58,015 nucleotides of DNA from an uncultured Comamonas sp. (lineage in GTDB: Bacteria > Pseudomonadota > Gammaproteobacteria > Burkholderiales > Burkholderiaceae_C), in assembly GCA_902175065.1 (NCBI GenBank), contig CABIIJ010000079.1, positions 1 through 58,015 on the forward strand. The letters are read 5' to 3'. The notes beneath the pieces are model-generated. The model was not told the DNA's origin and did not search any database. It worked only from the letters and a program-made list of their open reading frames with translations. Position numbers and translations under genes: made by a program. Position 1 is the first letter of the stretch. Each line of letters opens with the position of its first letter. This document shows, piece by piece, positions 5,629-55,445 of this stretch.

Positions 5629-5718
5629 AAAAAGAGAGCTGTTTCCGCTCAAAAACAAAGGATTTCAGATGTTTTTATGCCTGAAATCGTTTATTCATCA
5701 GTGGAAGCAGCTCTTTTT
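5629..5718. repeat. Double-palindrome repeat, family 1, copy A (also a bidirectional terminator)
   Basis: Outer arms AAAAAGAGAGCTGTTTCCGC and AGTGGAAGCAGCTCTTTTTT enclose inner arms AAGGATTTCAG and CTGAAATCGTTT. The A- and T-rich outer ends make a rho-independent terminator on both strands. It fills the gap between the convergent yqeY and EamA genes; the EamA stop codon lies just beyond the right arm. Confidence 0.8.
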
Positions 5719-5720
5719 TC

Positions 5721-6617
5721 TCAAGCCCGGCGTGCCCAGCGTCCGCCCCACTGGTTGACCGCCATGCCCAGCAGCACCCCGGCTGCGCCCAGCCAGTGCA
5801 GCAGCACCGGGCGCTCGCCAAACGCCCACATGGCCGAGGCGATGCCGATCACCGGCACCAGCAGCGACAGCGGGGCCACCGTGCCGACGGTGTAGCGTTG
5901 CAGCAGTTTGGTCCACAGCCCGTAGCCCAGCAGGGTGGACAGCAGCGCCAGGTACGCCACCGACCCCACGGCCAGCCAGCCCGCCGACTGCAGTTGCACG
6001 ACGATATGGCCCGCCCCGCCCTCCAGCCAGGCCGACAGGACGAACAGCGGCAGGATGGGGAATACGCTCGACCAGACCAGGAAGGGCAGCGGCTCGTACG
6101 GCCCCTGCCTGGCCGCGTGGCGGGTAATCAGGTTGGCCAGCGACCACATGGCCGCCGACCCCAGGGTCAGCAAGAAGCCGATCACCGTCATGCTGCCCGC
6201 GCCATCGCCCCGGGCCATGCCGATCACCGCCAGCCCGGCGCTGGCCACCACCAGCCCCATCCACTGCCAGGGCCTGGGCTGCTCGTGCAGGAACAGCGCC
6301 CCCAGCAGCAGCGAGATGAACGCCTGCGCCTGCAGCACCACCGAGGCCATGCCCGCCGGCATTCCCAGCGCCAGCCCGGCAAACAACATGCCGAACTGCC
6401 CCACGCCCTGCACCAGCCCGTAAGCGGCCAGCACGCCCCAGGTGAGGCTGGCCGGCTTGCGCACGAACAGCAGGAACGGCAGCGAGGCCACGCAGAACCG
6501 CATGGCCGACAGCAGCAGGGGCGAGAGTTCCTCCAGCCCCCACTTCATCGCCACGAAATTGACGCCCCAGATGACGATGACCAGCAGCGCCCGCAGCCAG
6601 TCGGACCGGCGCATCAT
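5721..6617 (-). CDS. EamA-family (DMT) inner-membrane exporter
   Basis: A 298-residue protein with ten hydrophobic helices in two EamA repeats (first repeat about residues 8-140, second about 150-290), each starting with a WG(V/L) or SLANL-type segment typical of the RhaT/YdcZ superfamily. Members export amino acids, nucleosides or other metabolites, and the substrate cannot be read from the sequence. Its ATG overlaps the stop of pmbA by four bases (ATGA), so it is translated in tandem with pmbA. Its 3' end runs into repeat copy A, which acts as its terminator. Confidence 0.88.
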   Translation of the reverse strand: MMRRSDWLRALLVIVIWGVNFVAMKWGLEELSPLLLSAMRFCVASLPFLLFVRKPASLTWGVLAAYGLVQGVGQFGMLFAGLALGMPAGMASVVLQAQAFISLLLGALFLHEQPRPWQWMGLVVASAGLAVIGMARGDGAGSMTVIGFLLTLGSAAMWSLANLITRHAARQGPYEPLPFLVWSSVFPILPLFVLSAWLEGGAGHIVVQLQSAGWLAVGSVAYLALLSTLLGYGLWTKLLQRYTVGTVAPLSLLVPVIGIASAMWAFGERPVLLHWLGAAGVLLGMAVNQWGGRWARRA

Positions 6618-8041
6618 GCGCCGCCTGCGACTTTCATCCGGTTGATCAGGATGGAGCCGACCGTCTTGGCCCCCATGGTGTAGGCATCGGCGCCGATGGC
6701 GGCGATGCCCTGGTACATGTCCTTCAGGTTCCCGGCGATGGTGATCTCCTGCACCGGGAAGGCGATTTCGCCCTTCTCCACCCAGAAGCCCGACGCGCCG
6801 CGCGAATAGTCGCCCGTGACGTAGTTCACGCCCTGGCCCATCAGCTCCACCACGAACAGGCCGGTGCCCAGCTTTTGCAGCATGGCGGCCAGATCGTCGC
6901 CCTTTTTGGTCAGGCTGGACGTCATGCTCAGGTTGTGCGAGCCGCCCGCGTTGCCCGTGGTGCGCATCCCCAGCTTGCGGGCCGAGTAGCTGGAGAGGAA
7001 GTAACCCTCCACCCGCCCGTCATCGACCACCTTGCGGGCCTGCACGCGCACGCCCTCGTCGTCGAAGGGCGAGCTGCCCTTGCCGCCGATGATGAACGGG
7101 TCTTCGGCAATCTGCACATGCTTGGGGAAGATCTTCTTGCCCAGGCTGTCGAGCAAGAACGTGCTCTGCCGGTACAGCGCACCGCCGCTGACGGCCTGCA
7201 CGAAACCGCCCAGCAGGCCGGCGGCCAGGGTCGATTCGAACAGCACCGGGCATTCGGTGGTGGCAATCTTGCGGCTGCCCAGGCGCGACAGCGCACGCTC
7301 GGCGGCGTAGCGGCCAATCGCCTCGGGGCTGGCCAGATCGGCGGCATTGCGCTCGGAGCTGTACCAGAAGTCGCGCTGCATCTCGCCGTTCTTGCCCGGC
7401 AGCGCGGCAATCGGCGCCACCGACAGGCTGTGCCGCGAGCTGGCATAGCCGCCGCGAAAACCGCGCGTGTGGGCGCTGAAGAAATGGCTTTGCTGGGCCG
7501 AAACGCTGGCCCCCTCGCTGTTCGTGATGCGCTTGTGCAATTGCAGCGCCGCCTGCTCGCAGCGCAGCGCCAGCTCGGCCGCCTGCTCGCTGCTGATCTG
7601 CTGGCCGTCGACCAGCCAGGGGTGGAACAAATCCAGATCGCGGTGCGTTTTCTGCGGGGCGATGTCCTTTTTGTCCGGCAGGCCCGCCGCCGGGTCTTCC
7701 GCCGTGAAACGGGCAATGTCGAACGCCGCCTGCACGGTCTGCTGCACGGCGGCTTCGGAAAAGTCCGAGGTGCTGGCGTTGCCCCGACGCTGGCCGACGT
7801 ACACCGTCACGCCCAGGGATTTGTCGCGGTTGCGCTCCACCGTTTCCAGTTCGCCCTTGCGCACGCCGACACTCAGGCCGCAGCCCTCCGAGGCATCGGC
7901 CCCGGCATCGGTGGCCCCCAGTTTCTTGGCGTGGGCCAGCGCCAGATCGACCAGATTCTCAAAAAAAACCGGGCTGTAACTAAAGCCCGAATCGGCCTGC
8001 CCGGCGGCAGTTCTTACATCACGTTGGCGCAGATTTTTCAT
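6614..8041 (-). CDS. pmbA: Metalloprotease accessory subunit PmbA (TldE)
   Basis: The 475-residue protein matches PmbA/TldE throughout: an N-terminal FENLVDLALAHAKKLGATDA segment, GCGLSVGVRKGELETVE, and the C-terminal RGASGFWVEKGEIAFPVQEI followed by GNLKDM. TldD-TldE is a cytoplasmic heterodimer that cleaves unfolded peptides and matures microcin- and CcdA-type substrates. TldE lacks the zinc site, which sits in TldD, and no tldD is in the window. The ATG at 8041 is chosen because homologues start with a short linker before FxNLVDLAL. It is divergent from darP, a conserved arrangement in many proteobacteria. Confidence 0.93.
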   Translation of the reverse strand: MKNLRQRDVRTAAGQADSGFSYSPVFFENLVDLALAHAKKLGATDAGADASEGCGLSVGVRKGELETVERNRDKSLGVTVYVGQRRGNASTSDFSEAAVQQTVQAAFDIARFTAEDPAAGLPDKKDIAPQKTHRDLDLFHPWLVDGQQISSEQAAELALRCEQAALQLHKRITNSEGASVSAQQSHFFSAHTRGFRGGYASSRHSLSVAPIAALPGKNGEMQRDFWYSSERNAADLASPEAIGRYAAERALSRLGSRKIATTECPVLFESTLAAGLLGGFVQAVSGGALYRQSTFLLDSLGKKIFPKHVQIAEDPFIIGGKGSSPFDDEGVRVQARKVVDDGRVEGYFLSSYSARKLGMRTTGNAGGSHNLSMTSSLTKKGDDLAAMLQKLGTGLFVVELMGQGVNYVTGDYSRGASGFWVEKGEIAFPVQEITIAGNLKDMYQGIAAIGADAYTMGAKTVGSILINRMKVAGGA

Positions 8042-8176
8042 AGCGGCGGCTATGATACCCAGCCGCGCAGCCGCCACCCGGCTGCCTTTGCAATTGCCCC
8101 GTCTTTTATTCATGGCGCGGTGCCCTCCACTCAAAGTTCGCTCCTGGAAATTGCCCCCAGGGGCGCAGATTGAAAC

Positions 8177-8848
8177 ATGCCACGCAAACCCAAAAAAGGC
8201 TATTACGTCAAAGGCGAATTCGTTGCCGAAGGCAGCGCCCGCGATCTGGAACTCAAAGCCGAGCTGAAAGGCTTGCGCGACGCCGACGACAGCACCCGCT
8301 CCGACCAGAAAAAAGAAAGCGAAGCCCTGCAGACCCTGGGCCAGGAGCTGCTGGAACTGCACCCCAAAACCCTGGAACGCCTGCAGTTGCCCGAGAAACT
8401 GCTCGATGCCCTGCACGAGTACCAGCGCCTGACCAGCTTCGAGGCCAGGCGCCGCCAGTTGCAATTCGTCGGCAAGCTGATGCGCAAGCTCGAAGACAGC
8501 GAAGTCGCCGCCGCCCGCACCGCCCTGCACGAGCAGCGCAGCGGCACCGGGCCGGAGCAGACGCAAATCCTGCTGGCCGAACAATGGCGCGACCGCCTGA
8601 TTGCCGACGATGCCGCCCTCACCCTCTGGCTGGAGCACTACCCCGGCACCGACGTGCAGCCCCTGCGTGCCCTGGTGCGCCAGGCCCGCAAGGACCAGGC
8701 CCAGACCGCTGCTGCCGAAGGCGCCCCGCCCGCCAAAAAAGGCCGTGCCTACCGCGACCTGTTCCAGCTGCTGCGCCGCAGCCTGAACACCGATGCGGCA
8801 GCCGAAGAGGAAGGCCGGGACGGCGGCGAGGACGAAGCCAATGACTGA
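8177..8848 (+). CDS. darP: Ribosome biogenesis protein DarP (YjgA, DUF615)
   Basis: A 223-residue, highly charged helical protein of the YjgA/DUF615 family. The N terminus MPRKPKKGYYVKGEFVAEGS is followed by a QTLGQELLELHPKTLERLQL segment and a helical RRQLQFVGKLMRKLED core. DarP binds late 50S precursors and promotes peptidyl-transferase-centre maturation. The C-terminal tail (EEEGRDGGEDEAND) is acidic and low in complexity. It is divergent from pmbA across 135 bases, and its last codons overlap the start of mog by eight bases, so darP and mog are co-translated. Confidence 0.93.
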   Translation: MPRKPKKGYYVKGEFVAEGSARDLELKAELKGLRDADDSTRSDQKKESEALQTLGQELLELHPKTLERLQLPEKLLDALHEYQRLTSFEARRRQLQFVGKLMRKLEDSEVAAARTALHEQRSGTGPEQTQILLAEQWRDRLIADDAALTLWLEHYPGTDVQPLRALVRQARKDQAQTAAAEGAPPAKKGRAYRDLFQLLRRSLNTDAAAEEEGRDGGEDEAND

Positions 8849-9452: not shown

Positions 9453-9498
9453 AATCCCCCTGCACCTGATCGACTCACCGTTCGATACACAAAGACAC

Positions 9499-15993: not shown

Positions 15994-16048
15994 GGCAGGG
16001 GGGACGCAAATCCAATCTGTGGCACGGGCACGGAAGCTATCAATTCCG

Positions 16049-16129
16049 TTGCTGCCGCCACTTGTATTGCAAAGACTTTAAAGATAAATGACTATGAAAT
16101 CGTTGATTACCAAGCGGTAACAGCTATGG
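16049..16129. repeat. Double-palindrome repeat, family 1, copy G (degenerate)
   Basis: Right outer arm CCAAGCGGTAACAGCTAT and inner arm TGAAATCGTTG match the family. The left side is eroded (GCTGCCGCCACTTG, then AAAGACTTTAA). It occupies the cutA-marC gap, and its right arm just overlaps the cutA stop codon at 16124. Confidence 0.6.
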
Positions 16130-16474
16130 TTTATCAGTATTCACCACCACCTGGTCCGCCACCCACCGGGCGTAGCTGGCGCTGGCGTGCGACACGGGCA
16201 GGGCATAAATCGCCGGTACCTCGTACGGGTGCAATCGGGCAATCAGCGCCTGCAGCGCGGGCCAGGCCGCCGGGGTGGTTTTGAACAGCAGGCGCACCTC
16301 CGGCTCGGATTGCAACTGGCCCTGCCACTGGTAGGTGCTGTGGACGCTGTCCTGCTGCACGCAGGCGGCCAGCCCCTGGGCAATGGCGGCCTGGGCCAGT
16401 TCCCCGGCGCTGGCTGCATCGGGGACGGTGGTGTAGACGGCCAGCAATTCCATCGCCGGGGGCGCGGACGGCAT
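16124..16474 (-). CDS. cutA: Divalent-cation tolerance protein CutA
   Basis: The 116-residue protein matches the trimeric CutA1 fold: AVYTTVPDAASAGELAQAAI near the start, GLAACVQQ, TYQWQGQLQSEPEVRLLFKT, and LHPYEVPAIYALPV, the usual signature. CutA1 was found through copper tolerance, but its structure resembles PII signalling proteins and its role is unsettled. The start shares one base with the ridA stop (TAATG), so the pair is translationally coupled. Its final codons extend into repeat copy G. Confidence 0.93.
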   Translation of the reverse strand: MPSAPPAMELLAVYTTVPDAASAGELAQAAIAQGLAACVQQDSVHSTYQWQGQLQSEPEVRLLFKTTPAAWPALQALIARLHPYEVPAIYALPVSHASASYARWVADQVVVNTDKP

Positions 16475-16935
16475 TATTCGATTTCCGCGATCAGCTCGAT
16501 CTCGACGCACGCGCCCAGCGGGATCTGTGCCACGCCGAAGGCGCTGCGGGCGTGCTTGCCCTTGTCGCCGAAGACTTCGCCCAGCAGCTCGGAGCAGCCG
16601 TTGGTGACGAGGTGCTGCTCGGTGAACGCTGGCGTGGAATTGACCAGGCTCATCACCTTGACGATGCGCTTGACGCGGTTCAGGTCGCCGCCGCAGGCCG
16701 CTTGCAGCGTGCCCATCAGGTCGACGGCAATGGCGCGGGCGGCCTGTTTGCCGTCTTCGGTGCTGATCTGCCCGCCCAGCTGGCCGGCCCAGACCGTACC
16801 GTCGGCCTTGCGGGCGATGTGGCCGCTCAGGAACACCAGGTTGCCCGTCTGCACGAAGGGCACGTAGGCTGCGGCTGGCACGGCCAGGGGCGGCAGGGTG
16901 ATGTTCAGGGCTTGGAGCTGGTCGTAAACGCTCAT
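16474..16935 (-). CDS. RidA-family (YjgF/YER057c) protein
   Basis: A 153-residue member of the RidA superfamily. The segments VQTGNLVFLSGHIARKADGT and VFGDKGKHARSAFGVAQIPL are typical of the longer YjgF-like branch near YabJ/TdcF. The canonical RidA arginine context (R-x-x-V near the C terminus) appears as KHARSAFGVAQIPLGACVEI, so imine or enamine deaminase activity is possible but not certain. The ATG at 16935 is preferred to an upstream in-frame start because homologues begin just before the first strand. It is coupled to cutA and divergent from comEC. Confidence 0.85.
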   Translation of the reverse strand: MSVYDQLQALNITLPPLAVPAAAYVPFVQTGNLVFLSGHIARKADGTVWAGQLGGQISTEDGKQAARAIAVDLMGTLQAACGGDLNRVKRIVKVMSLVNSTPAFTEQHLVTNGCSELLGEVFGDKGKHARSAFGVAQIPLGACVEIELIAEIE

Positions 16936-17034
16936 GGTGGTGCTTTCTTTCAAGGGAATGAGGTAATGGAGCGCCAGTGTGGGGTTTGGGCGCTTGCCCA
17001 AATTCTTTGCCCCCCACTAGCATGGCCTGCAAGT

Positions 17035-19416
17035 ATGCCAAGAGCGCAAGCCCCTGACCGCCAAATAGCCCCCTGGCTGACGGCCTGGCCCCTGATGGGC
17101 TGGGTGCTGGGCTGTGCGCTGCAATTGCAGCAGGGGCAATTGGGGCCGCTGTGGAACTATGCCATCGGGGGCCTGGCGGCGGCAGGGCTGGCGGGGCTGC
17201 TCTGGCGCGGGCGGCCGGTGCCACGGGCTGCAGCCTGCCTGGGCGTGCTGCTGGCCCTGGCCCTGGCCGGATGGAGCAGCACCGGCGCACGGGCCACGGC
17301 CTTTGCCCGCCACGCGCTGCCTGCCGCCATGCAGGGGGCGGACGTTACCGTGCAGGGCGTCGTCATCAGCCTGCCGCAGGCGACCGAACGCGGCCAGCGC
17401 TGGCTGTTTGCGCCGGAACACGCCTGGGATGGCACAGGCGCCCCCGTGCCGCTGCCGCCGCGCATCGCCCTGCGCCATTACGTGCCCGATTTCACCGTCC
17501 ATGCCGGCGAGCGCTGGCGCTGGACGGTGCGCCTGCAAAGCCCGCACGGCGCCCGCAACCCGCAGGGATTCGACCTGGAGCAATGGTGGTGGAGCCAGGG
17601 CGTGCAGGCCAGCGGCTACGTGCGTCCCCAAACTGCGCCGCAACGACTGGGCAAGACCTGGCAAGCGCCGCTGGAGCAGGCCCGCGAACAGGTGCGCCAG
17701 CGGCTGCACGGCCACGCGGGCACCAGCCGGGCCGCCGGGGTGGTGGTGGCCCTGGTCACGGGCGACCAGGGCGCGATCGACAAGGCGGACTGGCAGATTT
17801 TTCGCGCCACCGGCGTGGCCCACCTGGTCAGCATCAGCGGCCTGCACATCACCATGTTTGCCTGGCTGGCCGTGGTGCTGGTCGGCGGGCTGTGGCGGCG
17901 CAGCCCCTGGCTGTGCCTGCGCTGGCCCGCACCGCTGGCCGCCGCCTGGGTGGGGCTGGTGCTGGCCCTGCTCTACGCCCTGTTCAGCGGCTGGGGCATT
18001 CCGGCGCAGCGCACGCTGCTGATGCTGTTCACCGTCACCCTGCTGCGCAGCCTGGGCGTGCACTGGCCCTGGCCACGCATCTGGCTGCTGGTGCTGGCCG
18101 TGGTCGTGGCCTGGGACCCGTGGGCGCTGCTGCAAGCGGGTTTCTGGCTGAGTTTCGTCGCCGTGGGCGTGCTGTTCATGACCGGCGCCGGGCAGGCCGC
18201 CCGCCCCTGGCGCTGGTGGCGGCCCCTGTGGCGACTGGTGCGCGAGCAGACGCTGATCGGACTGGCCCTGGCCCCCCTGACCCTGCTGCTGTTCGGGCAG
18301 GTGTCCGTCGTCGGCTTCTTCGCCAACCTGTGGGCCATTCCCTGGGTGACGCTGCTACTCACGCCCCTGGCGATGGCCGGGGTGGTCTGCCCGCCGCTGT
18401 GGACGGCAGCGGTGTGGTGTGCCGACCTGCTGCTCGCCGTGCTGGCCTGGATGGCGCAATGGCCGGGGGCGGTGGCCTATTTCGCCCAGCCGCCGCTGGC
18501 CCTGGGCGTGGTCGGCATGGCCGGCTGCCTGTGGCTGCTGCTGCGCTGGCCCTGGCCGCTGCGCCTGCTGGGACTGCCGCTGGTGCTGCCCATGCTGCTG
18601 TGGCAGCCCCGGCCCCCGCCGCCGGGGGAGTTTTCCCTGCTGGCGCTGGACGTGGGGCAAGGCAGCAGCGTGCTGGTGCAGACGGCGGGCCATGCCCTGC
18701 TGGTCGATGCCGGCCCGCGCTGGGACGGCGGGGATGCGGGCAGCCAGAGCATCGTGCCGCTGCTGCACGCCCTGGGCCTGCGTCTGGACATGGTGCTGCT
18801 CACCCATGCGGACAGCGACCACACCGGCGGGGCGCTGTCCGTTCTCGCCGCCCAGCCGCAGGCCGCCTTGCAGGGCAGCGGTATTGCCACCATCGCCAGC
18901 CAGGCACAGCGCCCCTGGCTGGCATGTGCGCAAGGGCAGCAATGGGTGTGGGAACAGGTGACGTTTACCGTGCTGTGGCCTGCCCAAGGCGCACCGCGCC
19001 AGCCCGGGGCAAAGCCTGCGACCAATGCCAGCAGTTGCGTTGTTCAGGTGCGCTCGGCCAGCGGCGCCGTGGCCCTGCTGACCGGCGATGTGGAACAGGC
19101 CCAGGAGCGTGCCCTGCTGCGCTCCGGCACCGATGTACGGGCCGACGCCCTGCTGGTGGCGCACCACGGCAGCAAGACTTCCACCTCCGCCGCCTGGGTG
19201 GCCGCCGTGCAGCCGCAGGTGGCCCTGGTGCAAAGCGGCTGGCGCAACCGCTTCGGCCATCCGGCCGCGCCGGTGGTGCAGCGCTTGCAGGCTGCGCAGG
19301 CACAGCTTTTCAATACCGCCACCTGCGGGGCCATCCACTGGCATTCCACCCGGCCCGCAACCGCGCAATGCGAGCGTGAACGGCAGCCGCGTTATTGGCA
19401 GAGCGTTCGGCCATAA
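17035..19416 (+). CDS. comEC: DNA uptake channel protein ComEC/Rec2
   Basis: The 793-residue inner-membrane protein has the ComEC layout: an N-terminal DUF4131 region with helices and an OB-like loop (to about residue 210), a central competence domain (from about 240; SISGLHITMFAWLAVVLVGG), and a C-terminal metallo-beta-lactamase domain from about 530 with LALDVGQGSS and the HADSDHTGG metal motif near 590. ComEC imports single-stranded DNA across the inner membrane, and the lactamase-like domain is the presumed nuclease. All domains are intact, so natural transformation is plausible. The ATG at 17035 is the first in-frame start clear of divergent ridA. Confidence 0.92.
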   Translation: MPRAQAPDRQIAPWLTAWPLMGWVLGCALQLQQGQLGPLWNYAIGGLAAAGLAGLLWRGRPVPRAAACLGVLLALALAGWSSTGARATAFARHALPAAMQGADVTVQGVVISLPQATERGQRWLFAPEHAWDGTGAPVPLPPRIALRHYVPDFTVHAGERWRWTVRLQSPHGARNPQGFDLEQWWWSQGVQASGYVRPQTAPQRLGKTWQAPLEQAREQVRQRLHGHAGTSRAAGVVVALVTGDQGAIDKADWQIFRATGVAHLVSISGLHITMFAWLAVVLVGGLWRRSPWLCLRWPAPLAAAWVGLVLALLYALFSGWGIPAQRTLLMLFTVTLLRSLGVHWPWPRIWLLVLAVVVAWDPWALLQAGFWLSFVAVGVLFMTGAGQAARPWRWWRPLWRLVREQTLIGLALAPLTLLLFGQVSVVGFFANLWAIPWVTLLLTPLAMAGVVCPPLWTAAVWCADLLLAVLAWMAQWPGAVAYFAQPPLALGVVGMAGCLWLLLRWPWPLRLLGLPLVLPMLLWQPRPPPPGEFSLLALDVGQGSSVLVQTAGHALLVDAGPRWDGGDAGSQSIVPLLHALGLRLDMVLLTHADSDHTGGALSVLAAQPQAALQGSGIATIASQAQRPWLACAQGQQWVWEQVTFTVLWPAQGAPRQPGAKPATNASSCVVQVRSASGAVALLTGDVEQAQERALLRSGTDVRADALLVAHHGSKTSTSAAWVAAVQPQVALVQSGWRNRFGHPAAPVVQRLQAAQAQLFNTATCGAIHWHSTRPATAQCERERQPRYWQSVRP

Positions 19417-23491: not shown

Positions 23492-25048
23492 ATGCTTGAC
23501 GAGCAACTCAAAACCCAACTGGCCGCCTATCTGGAGCGCGTGACCCAGCCCTTCGAGCTGGTGGCCTCCCTGGACGAGAGCGAGACTGCCGCGCAGATGC
23601 GCGACCTGCTCACCACCATCCAGACCCTGCGCAGCGACAAGATCAGCCTGCGCCTGGATGGCAACGACGCCCGCAAGCCGTCGTTCACCCTGCAACGCCA
23701 GGGCAGCAACAGCAGCCTGCGCTTTGCCGGGCTGCCCCTGGGGCACGAATTCACCTCGCTGGTGCTGGCCCTGCTGTGGACGGGCGGCCATCCGCCCAAG
23801 GAAGAGCAGGACCTGCTCGACCAGATCGCCGCCATCGAAGGCGACTTCAACTTCGAGGTCTACATGAGCCTGTCGTGCCACAACTGCCCGGACGTGGTGC
23901 AGGCGCTGTCGCTCATGGCCATCCTCAACCCCAACATCAAGACCACCGTCATCGAAGGCGGCGCTTTCCAGAAAGAAGTGCAGGAGCGCGAAATCATGGC
24001 CGTGCCCATGGTCTACCTGAACGGCGAAGTGTTCGGCGCAGGCCGCATGTTGCTGGGCGAAATCGTCGCCAAGCTGGACACCGGCGCAGCGGCCCGCGAA
24101 GCGGCCAAGCTCTCGGCCAAGGAAGCGTTCGAGGTGCTCATCATCGGCGGCGGCCCGGCCGGCGCAGCGGCGGCCATCTACACCGCCCGCAAGGGCATCC
24201 GCACCGGCATTGCTGCCGAGCGCATCGGCGGCCAGGTGAACGACACGCTGGACATCGAGAACTACATCTCCGTCAATAAAACCGAAGGCCCGAAATTTGC
24301 CGCCGCGCTGGAATCGCACATCGGCGACTACGACATCGACGTCATGCGCCTGCAACGCGCTGCCAAGCTGATTCCCGCTGCGCAGCAAGGCGGCCTGATC
24401 ACCGTGGAACTGGAAAACGGCGGCACGCTGCAATCCAAGAGCGTGGTGCTGTCCACCGGCGCCCGCTGGCGCAACATGAACGTGCCCGGCGAAGACCAGT
24501 ACCGCACCAAGGGCGTGGCCTACTGCCCGAGCTGCGACGGCCCGCTGTTCAAGGGCAAGCGCGTGGCGGTGATCGGCGGCGGCAACTCCGGCGTGGAAGC
24601 GGCGATTGACCTGGCCGGCGTGGTCGAGCACGTCACCGTGTTCGAGTTCATGCCCGAACTCAAGGCCGACGCCGTGCTCCAGAAAAAGCTGGCCAGCCTG
24701 CCCAACGTCACCGTCATCAAGAATGCCCAGACCACCGAAGTGCTGGGCGACGGCAGCAAGGTCACCGGCCTGGCCTACAAGGACCGCACCAATGACGCAA
24801 TCCAGCAGGTGACGCTGGAAGGCATCTTCGTGCAGATCGGCCTGCTGCCCAACACCGACTGGCTCAAGGGCACGCTGGAGCTGAACAAGATGGGCGAGAT
24901 CGTCATCGACGCCAAGGGCCAGACCAGCGTCCCCGGCGTGTTCGCTGCGGGCGACTGCACCAACGTGCCGTACAAGCAGATCATCATCGCCGCAGGTGCG
25001 GGGGCAACGGCAGGGCTGTCGGCGTTCGACCACCTGATTCGCAACTGA
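23492..25048 (+). CDS. ahpF: Alkyl hydroperoxide reductase flavoprotein AhpF
   Basis: The 518-residue enzyme has the full AhpF layout: an N-terminal double-thioredoxin domain with the Cys129-His-Asn-Cys132 site, an FAD domain ([20 protein letters not shown] near 215), an NADPH domain ([15 protein letters not shown] near 360) and the Cys345-Pro-Ser-Cys348 redox pair. It passes electrons from NADH to AhpC. The second pair is CPSC where E. coli has CPHC. An AATCACTG...GGAGGA segment just upstream supplies the ribosome-binding site. The gene is followed by a terminator and repeat copy B. Confidence 0.97.
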
Positions 25049-25090: not shown

Positions 25091-25127
25091 AAAAAGGGAC
25101 TGTTCCGCAAGGAGCAGCCCCTTTTTT
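25091..25127 (+). terminator. Terminator of ahpF
   Basis: AAAAAGGGACTGTTCC, loop GCAA, then GGAGCAGCCCCTTTTTT form an imperfect stem with a run of T. It lies 43 bases after the ahpF stop. Confidence 0.85.
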
Positions 25128-25208
25128 CATAGCTTTTCCCGCTGACTATGCAAGGATTTCAGAATAAAAACAATATGAAATCGTTTATATATCTGCGGAA
25201 AATGCTAC
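25128..25208. repeat. Double-palindrome repeat, family 1, copy B
   Basis: Outer arms ATAGCTTTTCCCGCTG and CTGCGGAAAATGCTACT enclose inner arms AAGGATTTCAG and TGAAATCGTTT. It lies between the convergent ahpF and folK, directly after the ahpF terminator and ending at the folK stop codon. Confidence 0.8.
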
Positions 25209-25751
25209 TTATAAAGTAGCAACCCCCTCCACCCACTGCGGCCCGGCCAGCACGTCGATGGCTTGCCCGGCCACGGCGGCCAGTTGGGCGGCGGTGACGC
25301 GCTGCGGCGCGAGTTCGGCCAAGGGGCGCAGCACAAAGGCGCGTTCTTCCATGCGCGGATGCGGCACGGTCAGCGTGGGGGTGTCCAGCCTGGCATCGCC
25401 CCAGAGCAGGATGTCCAGGTCCAGCGTGCGCGGGGCATTGCGGTAGGGGCGCTGGCGGCCTGCGGCGTTTTCCAGGGCCTGGAGCCGGGCCAGAAAATCC
25501 TGCGGCGCAGCATTCGTCTCCAGCACGGCAACGGCGTTGAGGTAATCCGGCCCGCTGGCATCCACCGGGGCGCTGCGGTAGAGGCTGGAGACGCCGCACA
25601 GCCGCGTGCCCGGCAACCCGGCCAGCGCCTGCACGGCAGAGCGCAGCGCCTGCCCCCGGTCGCCCAGGTTGGCGCCCAGGCCGATGTAGACGGTGGTGGC
25701 GGCAGCAGTTTCAGCCGCAGGGTCGGTGGCCGCGTCGATGGTGGCGTTCAT
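25209..25751 (-). CDS. folK: 6-hydroxymethyl-7,8-dihydropterin pyrophosphokinase
   Basis: The 180-residue HPPK transfers diphosphate from ATP to hydroxymethyl-dihydropterin in folate synthesis. Typical segments are [60 protein letters not shown] with the two metal-binding aspartates, and [20 protein letters not shown]. The ATG at 25751 is chosen because homologues start shortly before YIGLGxNLG; the frame is open further up inside pcnB. It follows pcnB by seven bases in the hda-HAD-pcnB-folK run. It ends at repeat copy B. Confidence 0.95.
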
Positions 25752-31564: not shown

Positions 31565-31590
31565 ACCGCACGCTCCCTCCACACCGCGCA

Positions 31591-31623
31591 CCGCCCTCGG
31601 TTCACACAGAGGGCGGTTTTTTT
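31591..31623 (+). terminator. Terminator of the universal stress protein gene
   Basis: CCGCCCTC pairs with GAGGGCGG across a ten-base loop and is followed by seven T. It starts 27 bases after the stop codon. Confidence 0.9.
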
Positions 31624-31626
31624 ATT

Positions 31627-31708
31627 CATAGCATTTACCACGCATCCATAAAGCATTTCAGCCATCAAAGTGGCTGAAACCCAATGTTTATCTGCGCAAC
31701 AAGCTACG
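31627..31708. repeat. Double-palindrome repeat, family 1, copy C (diverged)
   Basis: Outer arms TAGCATTTACCACGC and CTGCGCAACAAGCTA and inner arms AAGCATTTCAGCC and GGCTGAAACCC keep the fold with many changes. Its right arm includes the stop and final codons of murJ, so part of this copy is translated. Confidence 0.6.
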
Positions 31709-33262
31709 CAATCTGACGCCCGTGGCCAGCAAGGCGCCAAAGTACACCGCAGCACTGGCCAGCAGGCTCGCCGCCATCACACCAGCCCGCTGCCACTGGC
31801 CCAGGGCCAGCCAGTCCCAGCGCTGACCCAGCCACAGCAGCAGGGCCGCCAGCAAACCGCAGGCCAGCAGCACCTGAAAAAAGTATTTCAACCACCCGCT
31901 GCTCGGCTGGTAGGCCCCCCGGCGCAGCAAGCCCAGCAGCAACCATCCGGCATTGACCAGCGCCGCCAGGCCGATCGACCAGGCCAGGCCCGCGTGCTGC
32001 AAACGCGGCACCAGGAAAAAATTGAGCACCTGGGTCAGCACCAGCACCACCACCGCGATCTTCACCGGCGTGCGCATATCCTGGCTGGCAAAGTAGCCCG
32101 GCGCCAGCACCTTGATCGCCACCAGCCCGAGCAGGCCCACGCCATAGCCCACCAGGGCCAGGGCAATCTGCTGCACGTCGCCGCCGTGCAGCGCCCCCCG
32201 GTGGAACAGCGTCGCCACCAGCGGCTGGGCAAAGGCCAGCAGCCCCACGGCGCAGGGCAGCGCCAGCAGCAGCACCAGGCGCAGCCCCCAGTCGAGCATC
32301 TGCGAATAGCGCTGGCTGTCGCCCGCAGCCCTGGCGGCGGCCAGTTGCGGGGTCAGCACCACGCCCAGAGCGACGCCCAGCAAGGCGGTGGGAAATTCCA
32401 TCAGCCGGTCGGCATAGAACAGCCAGGTCACGCTGCCCGGGGCCAGGTAGGAGGCGATCTGCGTGTTGATCATCAAACTCAGTTGCGCCACGCCCACGCC
32501 CAGCAGGGCCGGGGCCATCAACTGCAAAATGCGGCGCACCCCGCCATCGGCCCAGGCCGCCCGCAGCGCCGCCGAGCTGCAGCCCAGGCGCGGCAGCAAC
32601 CCCATGCGGCGCAGCGCCGGAATCTGCACCGCCAGTTGCAGCACGCCACCGGCCATCACCCCGGCGCACATGGCGTAGATCGGCTCGATGCCCTGGCGGC
32701 CGAACCACGGGGCCAGCAGCCAGGCGGCGGCGATCATGCACAGATTGAGCAGCACCGGCGTGGCCGCAGGCACGGCAAAGTGCTTATAGGTGTTGAGCAC
32801 GCCCGAGGACAGCGCCACCAGCGACATGAAGCCGATGTAGGGAAACATCCAGCGCGTCATCAGCACCGCAGCCGCCGTCTCGCCCTGGTTCTGGAAGCCG
32901 CTGGCCAGCAGCCACACCAGCACCGGCGCCCCCAGCACGCCCAGGGCGCACACCAGCAGCAGCGCCCAGGCCAGCACCGTAGCCACGTTGGCGATCAGCT
33001 CCCGGGTACGCTCCTCCCCCTCCTTGGCATGGCTGGCAGCCAGCACCGGCACAAACGCCTGGCTGAAAGCCCCTTCGGCAAACAGGCGCCGAAACAGATT
33101 GGGGATACGAAACGCCACATTGAACGCATCGGTCAGGGCGTTGGCCCCGAAGATCGAGGCCATGAGCAGATCCCGCACCAGCCCCGTCACGCGCGAGGCC
33201 AGGGTCATGAGCGAGACGATGGAGGCAGATTTGAAGAGCGACACCTGCAGGAGTGTAGCCAT
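31688..33262 (-). CDS. murJ: Lipid II flippase MurJ
   Basis: A 524-residue MOP-superfamily membrane protein with about 14 helices. Diagnostic segments are [40 protein letters not shown] and [10 protein letters not shown] near the N terminus. The conserved charged residues of the central cavity are present in these stretches. MurJ flips undecaprenyl-linked peptidoglycan precursor across the inner membrane. The ATG at 33262 is the conserved start ([14 protein letters not shown]). It is divergent from rpsT, as in many betaproteobacteria. The last five codons lie in repeat copy C. Confidence 0.95.
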
Positions 33263-33276
33263 TGCATCCGCCCGCT

Positions 33277-33306
33277 TTGGTAAAAAAGTGCGCTTCGGGC
33301 TATAAT
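33277..33306 (+). promoter_or_regulatory. Promoter of rpsT
   Basis: TTGGTA (33277-33282), 18 bases, TATAAT (33301-33306). Six bases after the -10 is CTTTGCTGGCAA, identical in sequence and position to the rpsU promoter at 1667. The predicted leader is about 45 nt. Confidence 0.75.
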
Positions 33307-33354
33307 GCTCGGCTTTGCTGGCAACATCCACAAACCAATCGAAGGAAAAACACC

Positions 33355-33648
33355 ATGGCAACCAAAGCCAAAAAGAACCCCCGCCTGGCATCGGGCCGTA
33401 AACGCGCCCGCCAAAACGTCAAGCTCAACGCCGCCAACACCTCGCTGCGTTCCAAATACCGTACCGCCGTGAAGAAGGTGGAAAAGGCCGTGCTGGCTGG
33501 CGACAAAGCCCTGGCCACCACCCTGTTCCAGCAAGCCCAGTCGGTGCTCGACTCCGTGGCCGACAAAGGCATCTTCCACAAGAACAAGGCCGCTCGCGAC
33601 AAGAGCCGCCTGTCCGCCAAGGTCAAAGCCCTGGCCCTGGCCGCCTAA
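33355..33648 (+). CDS. rpsT: 30S ribosomal protein S20
   Basis: The 97-residue basic helical protein matches S20, with [20 protein letters not shown] at the N terminus and [20 protein letters not shown] at the end. S20 binds 16S rRNA at the bottom of the 30S body and is among the first proteins to assemble. It is slightly longer than the 87-residue E. coli protein, as in other Burkholderiales. AAGGAAAAACACC precedes the ATG. It has its own promoter and is followed by a strong terminator. Confidence 0.97.
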
Positions 33649-35624: not shown

Positions 35625-36557
35625 ATGAGCGCCCTGAAACACTATTTGCAGTTTTCCGACTTCACCGCCGCCGAGTACGGCTACCTGCTCGCCCGCGCCG
35701 CGCTGATCAAGAAAAAATTCAAGTCTTACGACAAGCACCACACCCTGGTCGACCGCACCCTGGCGATGATTTTCGAGAAGGCCAGCACGCGCACCCGGGT
35801 GAGCTTCGAGGCGGGCATGTACCAGCTGGGCGGCTCGGTCGTGCACCTGACCACGGGCGACAGCCAGCTGGGCCGCGCCGAGCCGATCGAGGACAGCGCC
35901 CGCGTCATCAGCCGCATGACCGATCTGGTGATGATCCGCACCTTCGGCCAGGACAAGATCGAGCGCTTTGCCGCGCACTCGCGCGTGCCTGTCATCAACG
36001 GACTGACCAACGAGTTCCACCCCTGCCAGATCCTGGCGGACATCTTCACCTTCATCGAACAGCGCGGCAGCATCGCCGGCAAGGTGGTCGCCTGGGTGGG
36101 CGACGGCAACAACATGGCCAACACCTGGCTGCAAGCGGCCGACCTGCTGGGCTTTACCGTGCATGTGAGCACGCCCAGCGGCTACGAGGTGGATGAGAAA
36201 CTGGCCTTCGGTGGCCGCACGGCACGCGCCGGCTGCTACAAGATTTTCAGCAACCCCAAGGACGCCTGCCAGGGGGCCGACCTGGTCACCACCGACGTGT
36301 GGACCAGCATGGGCTACGAAGCCGAGAACGAGCAGCGCCGCAAGGCCTTTGCCGACTGGTGCGTCGATGCCGACATGATGGCCGCCGCCAAACCGGACGC
36401 CTTGTTCATGCACTGCCTGCCCGCGCACCGGGGCGAGGAAGTGACCGCCGACGTCATCGACGGCCCGCAGTCCGTCGTCTGGGACGAGGCCGAGAACCGG
36501 ATGCACGTGCAAAAGGCACTCATGGAGTACCTGCTGCTGGGGCAACTGCCTGCCTGA
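35625..36557 (+). CDS. argF: Ornithine carbamoyltransferase
   Basis: The 310-residue enzyme joins carbamoyl phosphate and ornithine to citrulline. The carbamoyl-phosphate loop is EKASTRTRVSFEAGMYQLGG (STRTR), followed by the HPCQ motif in TNEFHPCQILADIFT, and the ornithine-binding FMHCLPAHRGEEV near the C terminus. AAAGGAC precedes the ATG. It ends the argD-argF operon, and repeat copy D supplies a terminator. argG, often found next in other Burkholderiales, is absent here. Confidence 0.97.
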   Translation: MSALKHYLQFSDFTAAEYGYLLARAALIKKKFKSYDKHHTLVDRTLAMIFEKASTRTRVSFEAGMYQLGGSVVHLTTGDSQLGRAEPIEDSARVISRMTDLVMIRTFGQDKIERFAAHSRVPVINGLTNEFHPCQILADIFTFIEQRGSIAGKVVAWVGDGNNMANTWLQAADLLGFTVHVSTPSGYEVDEKLAFGGRTARAGCYKIFSNPKDACQGADLVTTDVWTSMGYEAENEQRRKAFADWCVDADMMAAAKPDALFMHCLPAHRGEEVTADVIDGPQSVVWDEAENRMHVQKALMEYLLLGQLPA

Positions 36558-36572: not shown

Positions 36573-36662
36573 AAAAGAGCTTCTCCCGCTGATTGAACAA
36601 GGTTTTCCAAGATAAACATCATGAAAAACCAGCAACCATCAGCGGCAGAAGCTCTTTTTTTC
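36573..36662. repeat. Double-palindrome repeat, family 1, copy D (argF terminator)
   Basis: Outer arms AAAAAGAGCTTCTCCCGCTG and CAGCGGCAGAAGCTCTTTTT and inner arms AAGGTTTTCCA and TGAAAAACC. The outer stem with its T-run is a strong terminator 15 bases after argF. The rest of this 360-base gap (36663-36917) shows only a weak small reading frame. Confidence 0.8.
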
Positions 36663-46088: not shown

Positions 46089-46170
46089 AATAGCTGTTTC
46101 CACTGGAAAAATAAGGATTTCAGTATCTTTCATAGTTGAAATCGTTTGAATACCAGCGGTAGCAGCTATT
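46089..46170. repeat. Double-palindrome repeat, family 1, copy E
   Basis: Outer arms ATAGCTGTTTCCACTGG and CCAGCGGTAGCAGCTAT enclose inner arms AAGGATTTCAG and TTGAAATCGTTT. It is the best-preserved copy and lies between the ypfJ stop and the RhlE-like gene, both on the minus strand. Confidence 0.82.
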
Positions 46171-46191: not shown

Positions 46192-47061
46192 TTATAGCTG
46201 CTGGGCGCCGAAGGTATCGCAGCTTTGCACGCTGCGGGCCTGCAATCCGCGCTCGAACCAGCGCACGCGCTGGGCGCTGCTGCCGTGGGTGAAGGTTTCC
46301 GGGCGCACGGTGCCGGTCTGCTGGCGTTGCAGGGTGTCGTCGCCGATCTGTGTGGCGGCGTTCAGCGCAGCGGCGATGTCGCTTTGGCTGAGCCAGTTTT
46401 TCGCCTGCTGCGAGTGCTGTGTCCACAGTCCGGCGTAGCAGTCGGCCTGCAATTCCAGGCGCACGGACAGGGCATTCTGCGCCTGCTGGCTGATGCGCCC
46501 GCGCTGGCCGTCCACCTTGGCGGTAGCGCCCAGCAGGGTCTGCACGTGGTGGCCCACTTCATGCGCGATGATGTAGGCGCGGGCAAATTCGCCCGGGGCG
46601 CCCAGCTGGCGGCTCATGGTGTCGAAAAATTCCATGTCCAGGTAGACCTTGCGGTCGCCGGGGCAGTAGAACGGCCCCATCGCGCTTTGCCCCATGCCGC
46701 AGGCCGTGGGCGTACTGCCGCGAAACAGCACCAGCTTGGGCGGCTGGTAGCGTGCGCCGCCCTGCTGGAAGATCGGCCCCCACACGTCTTCGGTGGAAGC
46801 CAGCACGGTGGCGACGAAGGCCGCCTGCCGGTCGTCCTGCGCCGGGCGCTGGGCCGGGACCTGCTGGGTTTGCGGCGCATCGCCGCCGGAGAGCAGGCCG
46901 ATGGTGGTCAGCGGGTTGATGCCGAACACGCCCCAGCCCACCAGCGCAATGACGATGGTGCCGATGCCGATGGAGCGCCCGCCCAGGCCGCCCCCACTTG
47001 CGCCACCGCTGCGGCGGCGGTCTTCCACGTTGTCCGACTGGCGATTGCCTTCCCACTTCAT
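46192..47061 (-). CDS. ypfJ: YpfJ-family neutral zinc metallopeptidase
   Basis: The 289-residue protein has an N-terminal membrane anchor (about residues 30-50, GIGTIVIALVGWGVFGI) and a periplasmic peptidase domain with the zinc motif HEVGHHVQ near residue 165 and CYAGLW further on, as in the YpfJ/KPN_02809 family. It starts MKWEGNRQSDNVEDRRR, the common N terminus. The substrate is unknown. It follows dcd by 18 bases on the same strand, so the two form an operon. Confidence 0.92.
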   Translation of the reverse strand: MKWEGNRQSDNVEDRRRSGGASGGGLGGRSIGIGTIVIALVGWGVFGINPLTTIGLLSGGDAPQTQQVPAQRPAQDDRQAAFVATVLASTEDVWGPIFQQGGARYQPPKLVLFRGSTPTACGMGQSAMGPFYCPGDRKVYLDMEFFDTMSRQLGAPGEFARAYIIAHEVGHHVQTLLGATAKVDGQRGRISQQAQNALSVRLELQADCYAGLWTQHSQQAKNWLSQSDIAAALNAATQIGDDTLQRQQTGTVRPETFTHGSSAQRVRWFERGLQARSVQSCDTFGAQQL

Positions 47062-52564: not shown

Positions 52565-52612
52565 CGGACATTTGGCAACGCCACAAGCACCAAGAACACA
52601 CTGAAAAGCCAT

Positions 52613-52645: not shown

Positions 52646-52676
52646 TGGCGTCTATCCCCTTGCGGGGACAAAAGCA

Positions 52677-53060
52677 TTACTTGGCGGCGTCGGTAGCAGC
52701 TTGGGCAGCGGCATCGGCGGCAGCCTTGGCAGCGTCAGCAGCGTTGTCCAGCGCTTCCTTGGCGGCGTCGCCAGCGGCTTCCACCTTGTCGGCAGCGTCA
52801 GCAGCCACTTCTTTGGCTGCATCGGCAGCGGCTTCCACCTTGTCGCCGGCTTGTTCTGCGGCGTCGGTAGCTGCTTCGGCGGCCTGGTCAGCAGCCTCTT
52901 TCGCAGCGTCTACGGCTTCAGCGGCAGCCTCTTGTGCAGCTTCGGCAGGAGCCGCTTGCTCAGTGGCAGGCGCAGCGGGGGCGGCCACTTCTTCTTTTTG
53001 GCCACAAGCGGCCAGGGCAGCAGCAGCGATGATGGAAGCGAGAAGAACAGACTTTTTCAT
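52677..53060 (-). CDS. Small alanine-rich helical lipoprotein
   Basis: The 127-residue protein has a signal peptide with lipobox LAAC (lipidated Cys19) and then nearly pure Ala/Asp/Glu/Lys sequence with a repeating pattern such as AADAAKEVAADAADKVEAAG. The repeat unit is close to 11 residues and would form a long amphipathic helix, like apolipoprotein- or LEA-like proteins. The pI appears acidic. Its role is unknown; envelope anchoring or stress protection is a guess. The ATG at 53060 has GAGAGG upstream; an earlier start at 53078 lacks a good signal. Confidence 0.85.
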   Translation of the reverse strand: MKKSVLLASIIAAAALAACGQKEEVAAPAAPATEQAAPAEAAQEAAAEAVDAAKEAADQAAEAATDAAEQAGDKVEAAADAAKEVAADAADKVEAAGDAAKEALDNAADAAKAAADAAAQAATDAAK

Positions 53061-53234
53061 GAAAAACACCTCTCTCAAGGGATTGTTGTCAATAGAGCGA
53101 AACGCTAGTTCAGTGAGAAACCGGGGCTACTCTAGCCGAATTTTGATTTAGCACAACTGAATCTGTAACCTTTAACGCCAAGTCCCGAGGGTTGGTTTAC
53201 ACAATTTTGAAATTATTTTGCGCTTCTACAGACA

Positions 53235-54362
53235 TCAATGGGCTTCGCTGTGCGCCCAGCCCGCATCCACCCAGGAGGAGAGCAGCTCCAGCGCATCGTC
53301 ACTGAGCTGCTGCACTTCCTGCGAGGACAACTGCCGGGTATCGGCCAGTTGGCGCATCAACTCCGCATCGCGGCCTTCGGCCAGATAGCTCTCGCCATTG
53401 ATGAAGATGTGCCGGGCGTCGTACAACATGCGCGTGCGCTGGTTCAGGCGCACGTTTTCGATCAGGCCGAAATCCTCGGCAGGCTCGAACCACACCCCCG
53501 GCTTCGGGTCACTCAAGGTTTCGCCCAGGGCACGCTCCAGCGCCAGGGGTTCGGCCAGGGCTTTTTCCAGCGCCGTGCGGGCGAAGTCCAGCAAGGGAGC
53601 GGGAATGGCGCCGGGGTTGGCCACCGCCGCCTGCTTGGGATCCTTGTAGACCACATCCTTGGGGCATTCATCGGGGGCATCGGACAAACGCAGGAACAGC
53701 TCGCGTGCCAGCTCGTCCTGCTTGGGGGAACGGAAACCCACCGAATAGGTCATGCACTCGCCCTCGGCAATGCCGTCGTGCGCCCACATGGGGGGCAGGT
53801 AGAGCATGTCGCCCGGCTCCAGCACGTATTCCTCCTCCGGCTCGAAATGGGTCAGGATTTTCAAGGGCACGTCCGGTTGCAGGTTCAGGTTTTTCTGCCG
53901 CCCGATGCGCCAGCGGCGCTTGCCGTGGGCTTGCAGCAGGAACACGTCGTAATTGTCGAAATGCGGCCCCACGCCGCCCTGGTCGGTGGCAAAGCTGATC
54001 ATCAAATCGTCCAGCCGCGCATCGGGGATGAAGCGAAACGGCTGCACCAGCGCATGCGCGGCCTGGACGTGCAGATCCACCCCTTGCACCAGCACCGTCC
54101 AGCCCGGCTGCTTCAAGGGCGGCAAACGGCGGCGCGAAAACGGCCCGTGGGCCAGGCTCCACTGCCCGCCGCCCAACTGGCGCACCAGACGCGACTCCAC
54201 GCCGTCCTGCCCGGCCAGGTCCAGCAGCTCGGCCCGGTTGAGCAATGGCTTGAAGCCTGGAATGGCCTGGCGCACCAGCAGCGGCTTTTTGTGCCAGTAG
54301 GTACGCATGAATTTGTCGGGCGAGATGCCGCCCAGCAGGGCGATTGGAAGTGAGGTGTCCAT
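53235..54362 (-). CDS. roxA: JmjC-type ribosomal oxygenase RoxA (YcfD)
   Basis: The 375-residue Fe(II)/2-oxoglutarate oxygenase hydroxylates an arginine of ribosomal protein uL16. The metal triad is visible as His and Asp in GVGPHFDNYDVFLLQAHGKR and a second His in YLPPMWAHDGIAEGECMTYS. The N-terminal part starts GGISPDKFMRTYWHKKPLLV, a conserved entry to the family. Length matches YcfD. It is divergent from the FKBP gene across 181 bases. Confidence 0.93.
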   Translation of the reverse strand: MDTSLPIALLGGISPDKFMRTYWHKKPLLVRQAIPGFKPLLNRAELLDLAGQDGVESRLVRQLGGGQWSLAHGPFSRRRLPPLKQPGWTVLVQGVDLHVQAAHALVQPFRFIPDARLDDLMISFATDQGGVGPHFDNYDVFLLQAHGKRRWRIGRQKNLNLQPDVPLKILTHFEPEEEYVLEPGDMLYLPPMWAHDGIAEGECMTYSVGFRSPKQDELARELFLRLSDAPDECPKDVVYKDPKQAAVANPGAIPAPLLDFARTALEKALAEPLALERALGETLSDPKPGVWFEPAEDFGLIENVRLNQRTRMLYDARHIFINGESYLAEGRDAELMRQLADTRQLSSQEVQQLSDDALELLSSWVDAGWAHSEAH

Positions 54363-54543
54363 AAAATCAAGGGCAAGAGTGCGGATAAACGGCGCCTATT
54401 GTCCTATGGACGACCCCGCCTGCCTGTCCTGGCCCCTCATCCCATGCTGGCATGGGAAAATCCGCCTCCATCCACCGCCCGCCCGTGCAGGCGGTCTTTC
54501 TTTTTCCACTCTGCGGCGCTGCCGCGCAAAAGGCTGCAAATCC

Positions 54544-55077
54544 ATGACCATGAACATCACCGAACAATGCGTCGTCGCCCTGACCTGGACCCTGAAAGAC
54601 ACCCTGGGCGACGAGCTGGACGTGCTGGATGCGCCGGTGGAGTTCCTGGTCGGCGGGGACGATCTGCTCAAACGCATCGAAGAGGCACTGCAAGGCCACA
54701 CCGTGGGCGATACGCTGCAACTGCACCTGGAGCCGGAAGAAGCGTTTGGCGATTACGTCGACACGCTGATCTTTCTGGAGCCGCGCAAGCTGTTCCCCGC
54801 CGAGCTGGAGGAAGGCATGACCTTCGAGGGCTACGCCCTGCCCCCTGGCTGCAACCCCGCAGCCCCCAAGGATGCGCTCTACACCGTGACCGATATTTAC
54901 CCCGAGCACGTGGTGCTGGACGGCAACCACCCGCTGGCCGGAATCGCCCTGCGCCTGCAATTGAAGGTAGAGGCCGTACGCGAGGCAACGGAAGAAGAAA
55001 TTGGCCGAGGCAGCGCAGGCACCGGCTTTTTCCGCATCCAGCCCCCCACCCTGCCGGACTCGCCCACACTGCACTGA
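54544..55077 (+). CDS. FKBP-type peptidyl-prolyl isomerase (SlyD-like)
   Basis: A 177-residue protein with an FKBP domain interrupted by an insert-in-flap region, as in SlyD: VALTWTLKDTLGDELDVLDA at the N terminus, LEPEEAFGDYVDTLIFLEPR, and AGIALRLQLKVEAVREATEE at the end. The usual His-rich metal tail of SlyD is missing, replaced by a short GRGSAGTGFFRIQPPTLPDS tail. It catalyses proline isomerisation and acts as a chaperone in the cytoplasm. The ATG at 54544 or the one at 54550 could be the start. It is divergent from roxA. Confidence 0.9.
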   Translation: MTMNITEQCVVALTWTLKDTLGDELDVLDAPVEFLVGGDDLLKRIEEALQGHTVGDTLQLHLEPEEAFGDYVDTLIFLEPRKLFPAELEEGMTFEGYALPPGCNPAAPKDALYTVTDIYPEHVVLDGNHPLAGIALRLQLKVEAVREATEEEIGRGSAGTGFFRIQPPTLPDSPTLH

Positions 55078-55360
55078 AAAACAAAGAGCACCGCCACCGC
55101 TTCCGAAGCTGCGCGGCAAGCGAAGCAGCCCCCGTGCCCAAACGCATTCCATCAGGGCGCAGGCCGTTTACCACCATCAGCGGCCTCCCGTCTGACCCAC
55201 CGTGGTTGTCCGAGCGCAGCGCCCGCAGGGCGCGAAGCGAGTTCCACGGTGCCAAAGCTGCGCCAGCACGCCTTCTTTGCGTCCTTTCTTGCGCGTGCAA
55301 GAAAGGATGTCGCCCGCCGGGGCGAGTCCCGGCCAGCAGCCCCAAAAAAACATAAAGATA
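55078..55360. other. Non-coding gap with one strong hairpin
   Basis: No reading frame here has a recognisable product. CCTTTCTTGC at 55283-55292 and GCAAGAAAGG at 55297-55306 form a perfect ten-base stem around GCGT. The surrounding bases (such as GTTCCACGGTGCC and CGCCCGCCGGGGCGAG) look like intergenic filler of this clade. The gap ends in repeat copy F. Confidence 0.5.
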
Positions 55361-55445
55361 AAAATAGCTGCTTCCACTTGAAACACAACGATTTCAGATA
55401 TTTTCAATAATGAAACCGTTAAACAACAAGCGAAAGCAGCTATCA
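55361..55445. repeat. Double-palindrome repeat, family 1, copy F
   Basis: Outer arms AATAGCTGCTTCCACTTG and CAAGCGAAAGCAGCTAT and inner arms AACGATTTCAG and TGAAACCGTT. It sits between the convergent FKBP gene and the reductase, ending ten bases before the reductase stop. Confidence 0.8.

Follow-up and report, generated by a model that had tools for sequence, protein, structure and literature searches.

Dispersed palindromes of bacterial genomes are usually explained either as repetitive extragenic palindromes (REPs) driven by a transposase or as transcription terminators. Neither explanation predicts even placement, which is a feature of the repeat described here: an 82-bp double palindrome found seven times in a 58,015-nt contig stretch (hereafter the window) of an uncultured Comamonas sp., whose genome (G000) comprises 3.23 Mb in 103 contigs. 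The copies of this element are fixed in length, lie at the 3' ends of genes and are over-dispersed along the chromosome. We tentatively favour the explanation that it is an architectural DNA site for a predicted protein, serving as a chromosome-organising or topological anchor at gene 3' ends.

The nearest published repeat that we found is BRE of Bordetella and Comamonadaceae (PMC3110155), which resembles the Comamonas element in being dispersed, mostly intergenic and betaproteobacterial, with full-length copies of 75-91 bp. As far as that source describes them, however, the BREs of Bordetella average 69% GC, vary in length and number and are partly tandem, whereas the element has about 38% GC, a fixed length of 82 bp and stands singly. 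It is by this description (GC, length variation, tandem habit) and not by sequence letters that the two are set apart. The same source gives 13 BREs for Delftia acidovorans SPH-1; in another strain, D. acidovorans NBRC 14950, we found 0 copies of the 82-bp element. REPs and bacterial interspersed mosaic elements (BIMEs), with their REP-associated tyrosine transposases (RAYTs), are likewise extragenic palindromes at gene ends with a high copy number (PMC3733652, PMC12306157). REPs are defined as short palindromes, of 20-40 bp, tagged on one side with GTAG or CGTC (PMC3733652), whereas the element is an 82-bp double palindrome whose consensus holds no such tag, whose host has no Y1 transposase match and whose copies are over-dispersed. 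Comamonas and Acidovorax are not named in the main text of these two papers, and no description of the 82-bp element was found in the open-access literature searched. Bidirectional intrinsic terminators are also similar, with a hairpin past stop codons and A/T runs at many copies, but the element departs from them in its long fixed interior, its conserved boxes, its even spacing and the absence of a sense T-run bias in G000. Finally, the BIME-2 gyrase sites of E. coli are palindromes at 3' ends with a possible topological role, as described in PMC6379681; unlike these, the element is a single dyad of fixed length limited to a few genera.

All seven copies claimed by the original prediction are present as 82-bp cores, which align without gaps. 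A covariance model built from them recovered the seven places on the plus strand of the window by construction (E 2e-13 or lower, the next match having 14.8 bits and E 0.44). The proposed model search also found the family outside this training set, with far more than ten copies: at least 150 scored matches in G000, both strands counted and window copies included. A palindromic pattern of 22 fixed bases, allowing up to three mismatches (pattern P), located 312 places in the same genome, one per 10.3 kb, and none when it was read backwards as a control. Of 53 genomes of the genus, 40 carry the element and 24 carry at least 80 copies, the copy number ranging from 0 to 312; the close relative G005 (85% complete) has 239. 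Of 200 genomes sampled from the family, 24 gave a match, and nine of these, which carry 12 to 54 copies, lie outside the genus. Outside the family, six of 387 genomes had one place each, which equals the backward control. In a separate set of 28 genomes, Comamonas denitrificans has 132 copies, Paenacidovorax caeni 36, a Comamonas metagenome-assembled genome 19, Acidovorax sp. NO-1 six, Acidovorax sp. Leaf160 three and three genomes one; zero copies were found in the other 20, which include Delftia acidovorans, Acidovorax delafieldii and the Variovorax, Polaromonas, Rhodoferax and Ramlibacter genomes tried. It is in C. denitrificans that a window protein has its closest named relative (95%), which fits the assignment to Comamonas. 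A viral contig collection gave a single exact pattern match (L307, 6780-6855, contig IMGVR_UViG_2767802354_000003). A bias in placement over the whole chromosome was considered for the genome G002 and rejected, since its 61 copies with 0-1 mismatches occupy all eight chromosome bins, with 4 to 12 per bin.

The centres of the repeat had been described as variable, which is true of their sequence but not of their length. In 442,903 bp of G000, 43 of the 48 covariance model matches were exactly 82 bp, four were 81 bp and one was 83 bp. A scan of the same sequence for outer arms 10-160 bp apart yielded 41 pairs, 35 of them at 64 bp, one at 65 bp and five as scattered singles. No shortened two-armed copy was seen there, half copies not having been searched. 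The outer arms occupy columns 2-16 and 67-81 and the inner arms columns 25-35 and 48-58, on either side of a dyad axis between columns 41 and 42. Directly outside both ends there are A or T tracts nearly free of G and C, and each site with dyad symmetry measures about 90 bp. Four boxes are centred near columns 10, 31, 52 and 73, a step of about 21 bp that corresponds to two turns of the helix; the outer ones read AGCT-N5-C-N-C and the inner ones TTTCA. The centre is itself an A or T tract and is anti-palindromic, Watson-Crick pairs at columns 41/42 having a frequency of 0.06 against 0.50 expected. The statistics on boxes, identity and GC come from 95 of 98 own copies picked with pattern P, out of the 312 in G000; these 95 have a mean pairwise identity of 0.57 (maximum 0.83) and a GC content of 0.38, compared with 65% in the window. 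A species-specific 'concerted evolution' of the arms (CC versus GC at columns 12-13) was hinted at by the arm alignment set, a model-biased set of 68 copies from which two 83-bp copies and duplicates had been left out. This idea was rejected: copies of G002 are nearly all GC (14/16), but in an unbiased set both forms occur in G000 and in C. denitrificans, and therefore no co-evolution is claimed.

Gene context and spacing were studied in 823 kb of G000, with genes called by a simple codon-bias caller. The element occupies 33 of 89 convergent gaps, 51 of 463 codirectional ones and 6 of 90 divergent ones. Where it faces a stop codon, the median distance is 13.5 nt, with 77 of 116 such sides within 25 nt and 94 within 45 nt. 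Five of the 98 own copies lie inside a called gene, part of which may be errors of the caller. This is also the placement to be expected of bidirectional intrinsic terminators or 3'-end stabilisers, in which an RNA hairpin with flanking A/T runs would end both converging transcripts. Judged on sequence features this explanation is the strongest rival of the architectural DNA site, albeit an unlikely one. The proximity to stops and the excess of convergent over divergent gaps both speak for it, as do the strong hairpins predicted for the window copies, and the 77 sides within 25 nt, where the element follows the stop without an intervening terminator, are what a terminator family would look like. 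Its prediction of T-runs has a divided outcome. TTTT stands at the 3' foot in 49 of 66 orientations of convergent own copies, and in G010 codirectional copies have the T-run in 11 of 13 cases and the A-run in 7 of 13; but codirectional own copies have TTTT at the sense 3' foot in 24 of 56 cases against AAAA at the 5' foot in 29 of 56, those of G002 in 2/6 and 4/6, and the three genomes pooled in 37/75 and 40/75.

Other observations are also at variance with a terminator. If selection acted on an RNA stem, G-U pairs should be favoured; in the sense strand of the 75 codirectional copies from three genomes, however, they are no more numerous (110 cells) than A-C pairs (114 cells), a test run with no positive control. 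The central tract of these copies is AA in 32, TT in 39 and other in 4, with no strand bias. The earlier suggestion that the repeat is selected for folding thus finds no support at the RNA level in the strand and G-U/A-C tests made. Moreover, the 50-nt interior is locked in length, which terminators do not need, and 8 of the 22 stop-facing sides more than 45 nt from the stop have a separate terminator between stop and element. Termination, also claimed in the original prediction, may be a real side function at many copies, yet it is seemingly not what shapes all of them and it leaves the locked length and the even spacing unexplained.

The first contigs that we inspected hinted that close pairs are missing. 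In fresh contigs of G000, 4 of 45 intervals were shorter than 3.5 kb against 16.7 expected from random non-divergent gene-end sites, and 0 of 4000 simulations gave so low a count; the contigs of the spacing tests were large ones, picked once their partial match list had been seen. With two islands excluded, G000 has 85 intervals with a mean of 7.7 kb and a coefficient of variation (CV) of 0.49, compared with 0.83 simulated (lowest of 4000, 0.61), and 5 of the 85 are below 3.5 kb where 30.8 were expected. The closest two copies in the 823 kb are at least 1.3 kb apart. In G010, 0 of 25 intervals fall below the threshold against 4.5 expected (P 0.002-0.006). The control consisted of 72 classical terminators from gaps free of the element, which gave 19 of 61 intervals below 3.5 kb, with 18.7 expected, and a CV of 0.99 against 1.06. 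Classical terminators of G000 are randomly spaced whereas the 82-bp element is over-dispersed, a further difference between the two. The locked length with free spacer sequence, the phased boxes, the even spacing and the indifference to strand, taken together, therefore point to a site that would act as DNA.

The two islands are among the longest gaps, free of any element, at 48-93 kb of contig C18 and 4.4-31.6 kb of contig C58. The first holds 37 called genes, and the six that were searched include conjugation proteins (TrbL, TraG/VirB4-like), an MFS transporter, a ParB_N domain and an FtsH-like protease; the second holds 12 called genes, of which four were searched and all encode polysaccharide-synthesis proteins. 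We infer that both gaps, the former similar to an integrative and conjugative element and the latter a polysaccharide cluster, are acquired islands. Element-free gaps in the element map may thus flag foreign DNA in Comamonas.

Even spacing could also be produced by target immunity, as it is known from Mu and Tn7. The copies would then be old relics of a mobile element of the kind of REPs or of miniature inverted-repeat transposable elements (MITEs), both of which had been suggested for this repeat, spaced by an immunity rule and with arms surviving by template switching. We consider this quite improbable, although the copy number is high and lineage-specific (0 to 312), the copies are dispersed and the outer arms form terminal inverted repeats as in MITEs. 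The REP version is not supported, as no match to the Y1 transposase PF01797 was found in G000 with its 312 copies or in the 85% complete G005 with its 239, other transposases not having been searched. The transposase family is present in 19 of 21 genus genomes, among them G013, G014, G017, G019 and, with a score below the curated cut-off, G006, all five free of the element, and the association with a RAYT was rejected on the lack of a match in G000. The MITE version is weakened by divergence, no pair exceeding an identity of 0.83 among 95 of the 312 copies, by the absence of copies from the two foreign-looking islands and of shortened two-armed copies (half copies were not searched), and by the stability of the sites.

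This stability was seen in comparison with G005, whose flanking sequences are 81-98% identical to those of G000, mostly more than 90%. Of 62 elements of G005, 28 had no orthologous own stretch available and were dropped, and the own counterparts of the remaining 34 were sought with a fixed-length pattern. The genome of the window carries the element at 33 of these 34 testable sites. Because some own stretches had been chosen for holding an element, 17/18, from stretches not chosen in this way, is the fairer figure. Empty sites in relatives had been proposed as a check. At the only site that lacks the element, a larger region is missing with it and there is no clean junction; target duplications were not searched systematically. 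The reverse comparison gave 34/34 own elements present in G005 but is not used as evidence, the stretches of G005 having mostly been chosen around elements. The positions of the element are thus stable with respect to one close relative. With G010 and G002 there were only 14 and 9 shared gene adjacencies, and positional conservation was not significant.

In the 33 orthologous pairs at the shared sites, 566 of 2706 positions differ (21%), while the length is kept. An indel would appear as a missing copy, since the search was of fixed length, and one of 34 is missing; when 14 of the pairs were aligned with MAFFT, gaps arose in two columns, each time in a pair whose interior is inverted (see below), and four window copies aligned without any. 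For the substitutions by column, five pairs judged to be inverted were dropped and 28 remained. The boxes and the centre show low substitution between G000 and G005, and columns outside the search pattern are also slow: columns 25, 26, 41, 42, 57, 62 and 67 had 0-2 changes, compared with 8-18 at most spacer columns. In the same 28 pairs, compensatory changes between arms, whose absence had been named as a refutation, are in excess in the outer arms: pairing was preserved by 13 two-sided changes where 5.6 were expected (P 0.0015). The excess in the inner arms (3, with 1.6 expected) is not significant. The spacer and centre columns, intended as a control, gave 11 against 6.6 (P 0.05).

In four of the 33 pairs the interior is inverted. 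Columns 17-66 of these match their orthologue in reverse complement with identities of 0.94, 0.84, 0.80 and 0.78 (P 0.0085 or lower with respect to non-orthologous comparisons), whereas the direct match is only 0.60-0.66. The outer arms of the same pairs match directly as well or better. A fifth inverted pair is doubtful. Template switching between inverted repeats leaves precisely a homogenisation of arms and an inversion of the spacer, according to PMC8604942, and both are suggested here, although what that paper deals with is a mutation mechanism in yeast and not a repeat family. The excess of two-sided changes and the inverted interiors make this pair of close species a natural record consistent with template switching. 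At replication, one arm would be copied onto the other, so that the palindrome is partly kept, and sometimes the interior would be inverted.

Strong DNA gyrase sites similar to BIME-2, which would remove positive supercoils downstream of genes, are the least probable of the explanations. The bias to 3' ends and convergent genes and the presence of palindromes with phased A/T tracts agree with such a role, and BIME-2 of E. coli is bound and cut by gyrase as reported in PMC6379681. Nevertheless, an enzyme present in all species should not yield 0 to 312 copies in one genus, and a fixed dyad of 82 bp should not be needed for it.

In the architectural explanation that we prefer, a predicted sequence-specific protein or complex would bind the dyad site as DNA, perhaps with a contribution of the A/T tracts. 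In the core chromosome, a site would be retained about every 8 kb as an organising or topological anchor, and by placement at the 3' ends of transcription units no promoter would be disturbed. Many copies probably terminate transcription too. A bolder version, which we regard as doubtful, is a chromosome-partitioning code, in which a dyad of locked length and helical phasing, recurring about every 8 kb at the 3' ends of genes, is bound by a lineage-specific architectural protein and sets the boundaries of loops or supercoil domains over the whole core chromosome. If true, this would mean that a bacterium can hold evenly placed domain anchors encoded in its sequence, which species lose or gain along with the protein. 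The element is abundant in about half of the genus and absent from sister species, which offers natural plus and minus genomes for asking what sets the size of chromosome domains in bacteria, and also a short bait for finding the protein.

Several points weigh against an architectural site. The argument from the phasing of the boxes is one of geometry only, and the conservation of the boxes is partly built in because the copies were picked by a box pattern. Compensatory pairing is equally expected from selection on a hairpin, and the closeness to stops and the T-runs of G010 are as a terminator would have them. As to spacing, the threshold of 3.5 kb was set after the first contigs had been seen, and the two islands were dropped after their gaps had been seen; with the islands included, the CV test on the first five contigs is not significant (P 0.08-0.22), and in G002 the result of 0/15 intervals below 3.5 kb against 1.8 expected is not significant either (P 0.12-0.14). 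Moreover, a copy number from 0 to 312 in one genus means that the function is dispensable or replaceable.

The genes adjoining the copies of the window are ordinary ones, YqeY, CutA1, MurJ, a carbamoyltransferase and a DEAD-box helicase among them. All copies had been placed between genes, which is nearly so, two of them overlapping the ends of open reading frames (ORFs). Copy A (5634-5715) lies between convergent ORFs encoding a YqeY-like protein and an EamA transporter and has an A run before it and a T run after it. Copy B (16047-16128) stands between codirectional ORFs and overlaps by 5 bp the end of ORF 16124-17290. Copy C (25128-25209) is placed 79 bp after ORF 23492-25048, whose product has Pyr_redox_2 and Thioredoxin_3 domains; just before it, at approximately 25091-25127 on the plus strand as judged by eye, is a separate hairpin with a T-run, similar to an intrinsic terminator. 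In G005, an insertion of about 1.27 kb (L091, around 6083-7355) lies at most 20 bp from the orthologue of copy C and overlaps a 401-aa frame of no assigned identity. Copy D (31627-31708) overlaps by 21 bp the end of the MurJ ORF 31688-33391. A/T runs had been reported for copies A and D, but copy D has no T-run at its own foot; a separate terminator-like hairpin with a T-run precedes it on the plus strand (31590-31623, by eye), and the second copy flanked by an A run before and a T run after is copy E (36575-36656), 17 bp after the carbamoyltransferase ORF 35625-36557. The last two copies are found past the stops of minus-strand ORFs: copy F (46089-46170) 21 bp beyond a zinc-peptidase ORF (46192-47061), and copy G (55363-55444) 9 bp beyond a ferric-reductase-like ORF (55454-56929).

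Among more distant genomes, G010 keeps an element at the carbamoyltransferase end, and in G001, G002, G012 and G020 one is found past the next gene; none is present there in G006 and G013, both free of the family. The tail of the carbamoyltransferase gene (its last 45-65 bp approximately) is repeated downstream in G005 (L091), G002 (L093), G012 (L095) and G020 (L097), the last of which carries it three times. Between these repeats there are about 100-190 bp with GC-rich hairpins (GGCGCAGGCTCAT...), and the arrangement resembles a different element, one that restores the end of the gene when it inserts.

A search of the window against Rfam gave no family at gathering score for any copy of the element; its sole match was a guanidine-II (mini-ykkC) riboswitch (RF01068, 33.7 bits) at 2428-2479 on the minus strand. 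The window also contains a 32-bp inverted repeat at 3879-3910 and 4115-4146, whose arms are 97% complementary and 204 bp apart.

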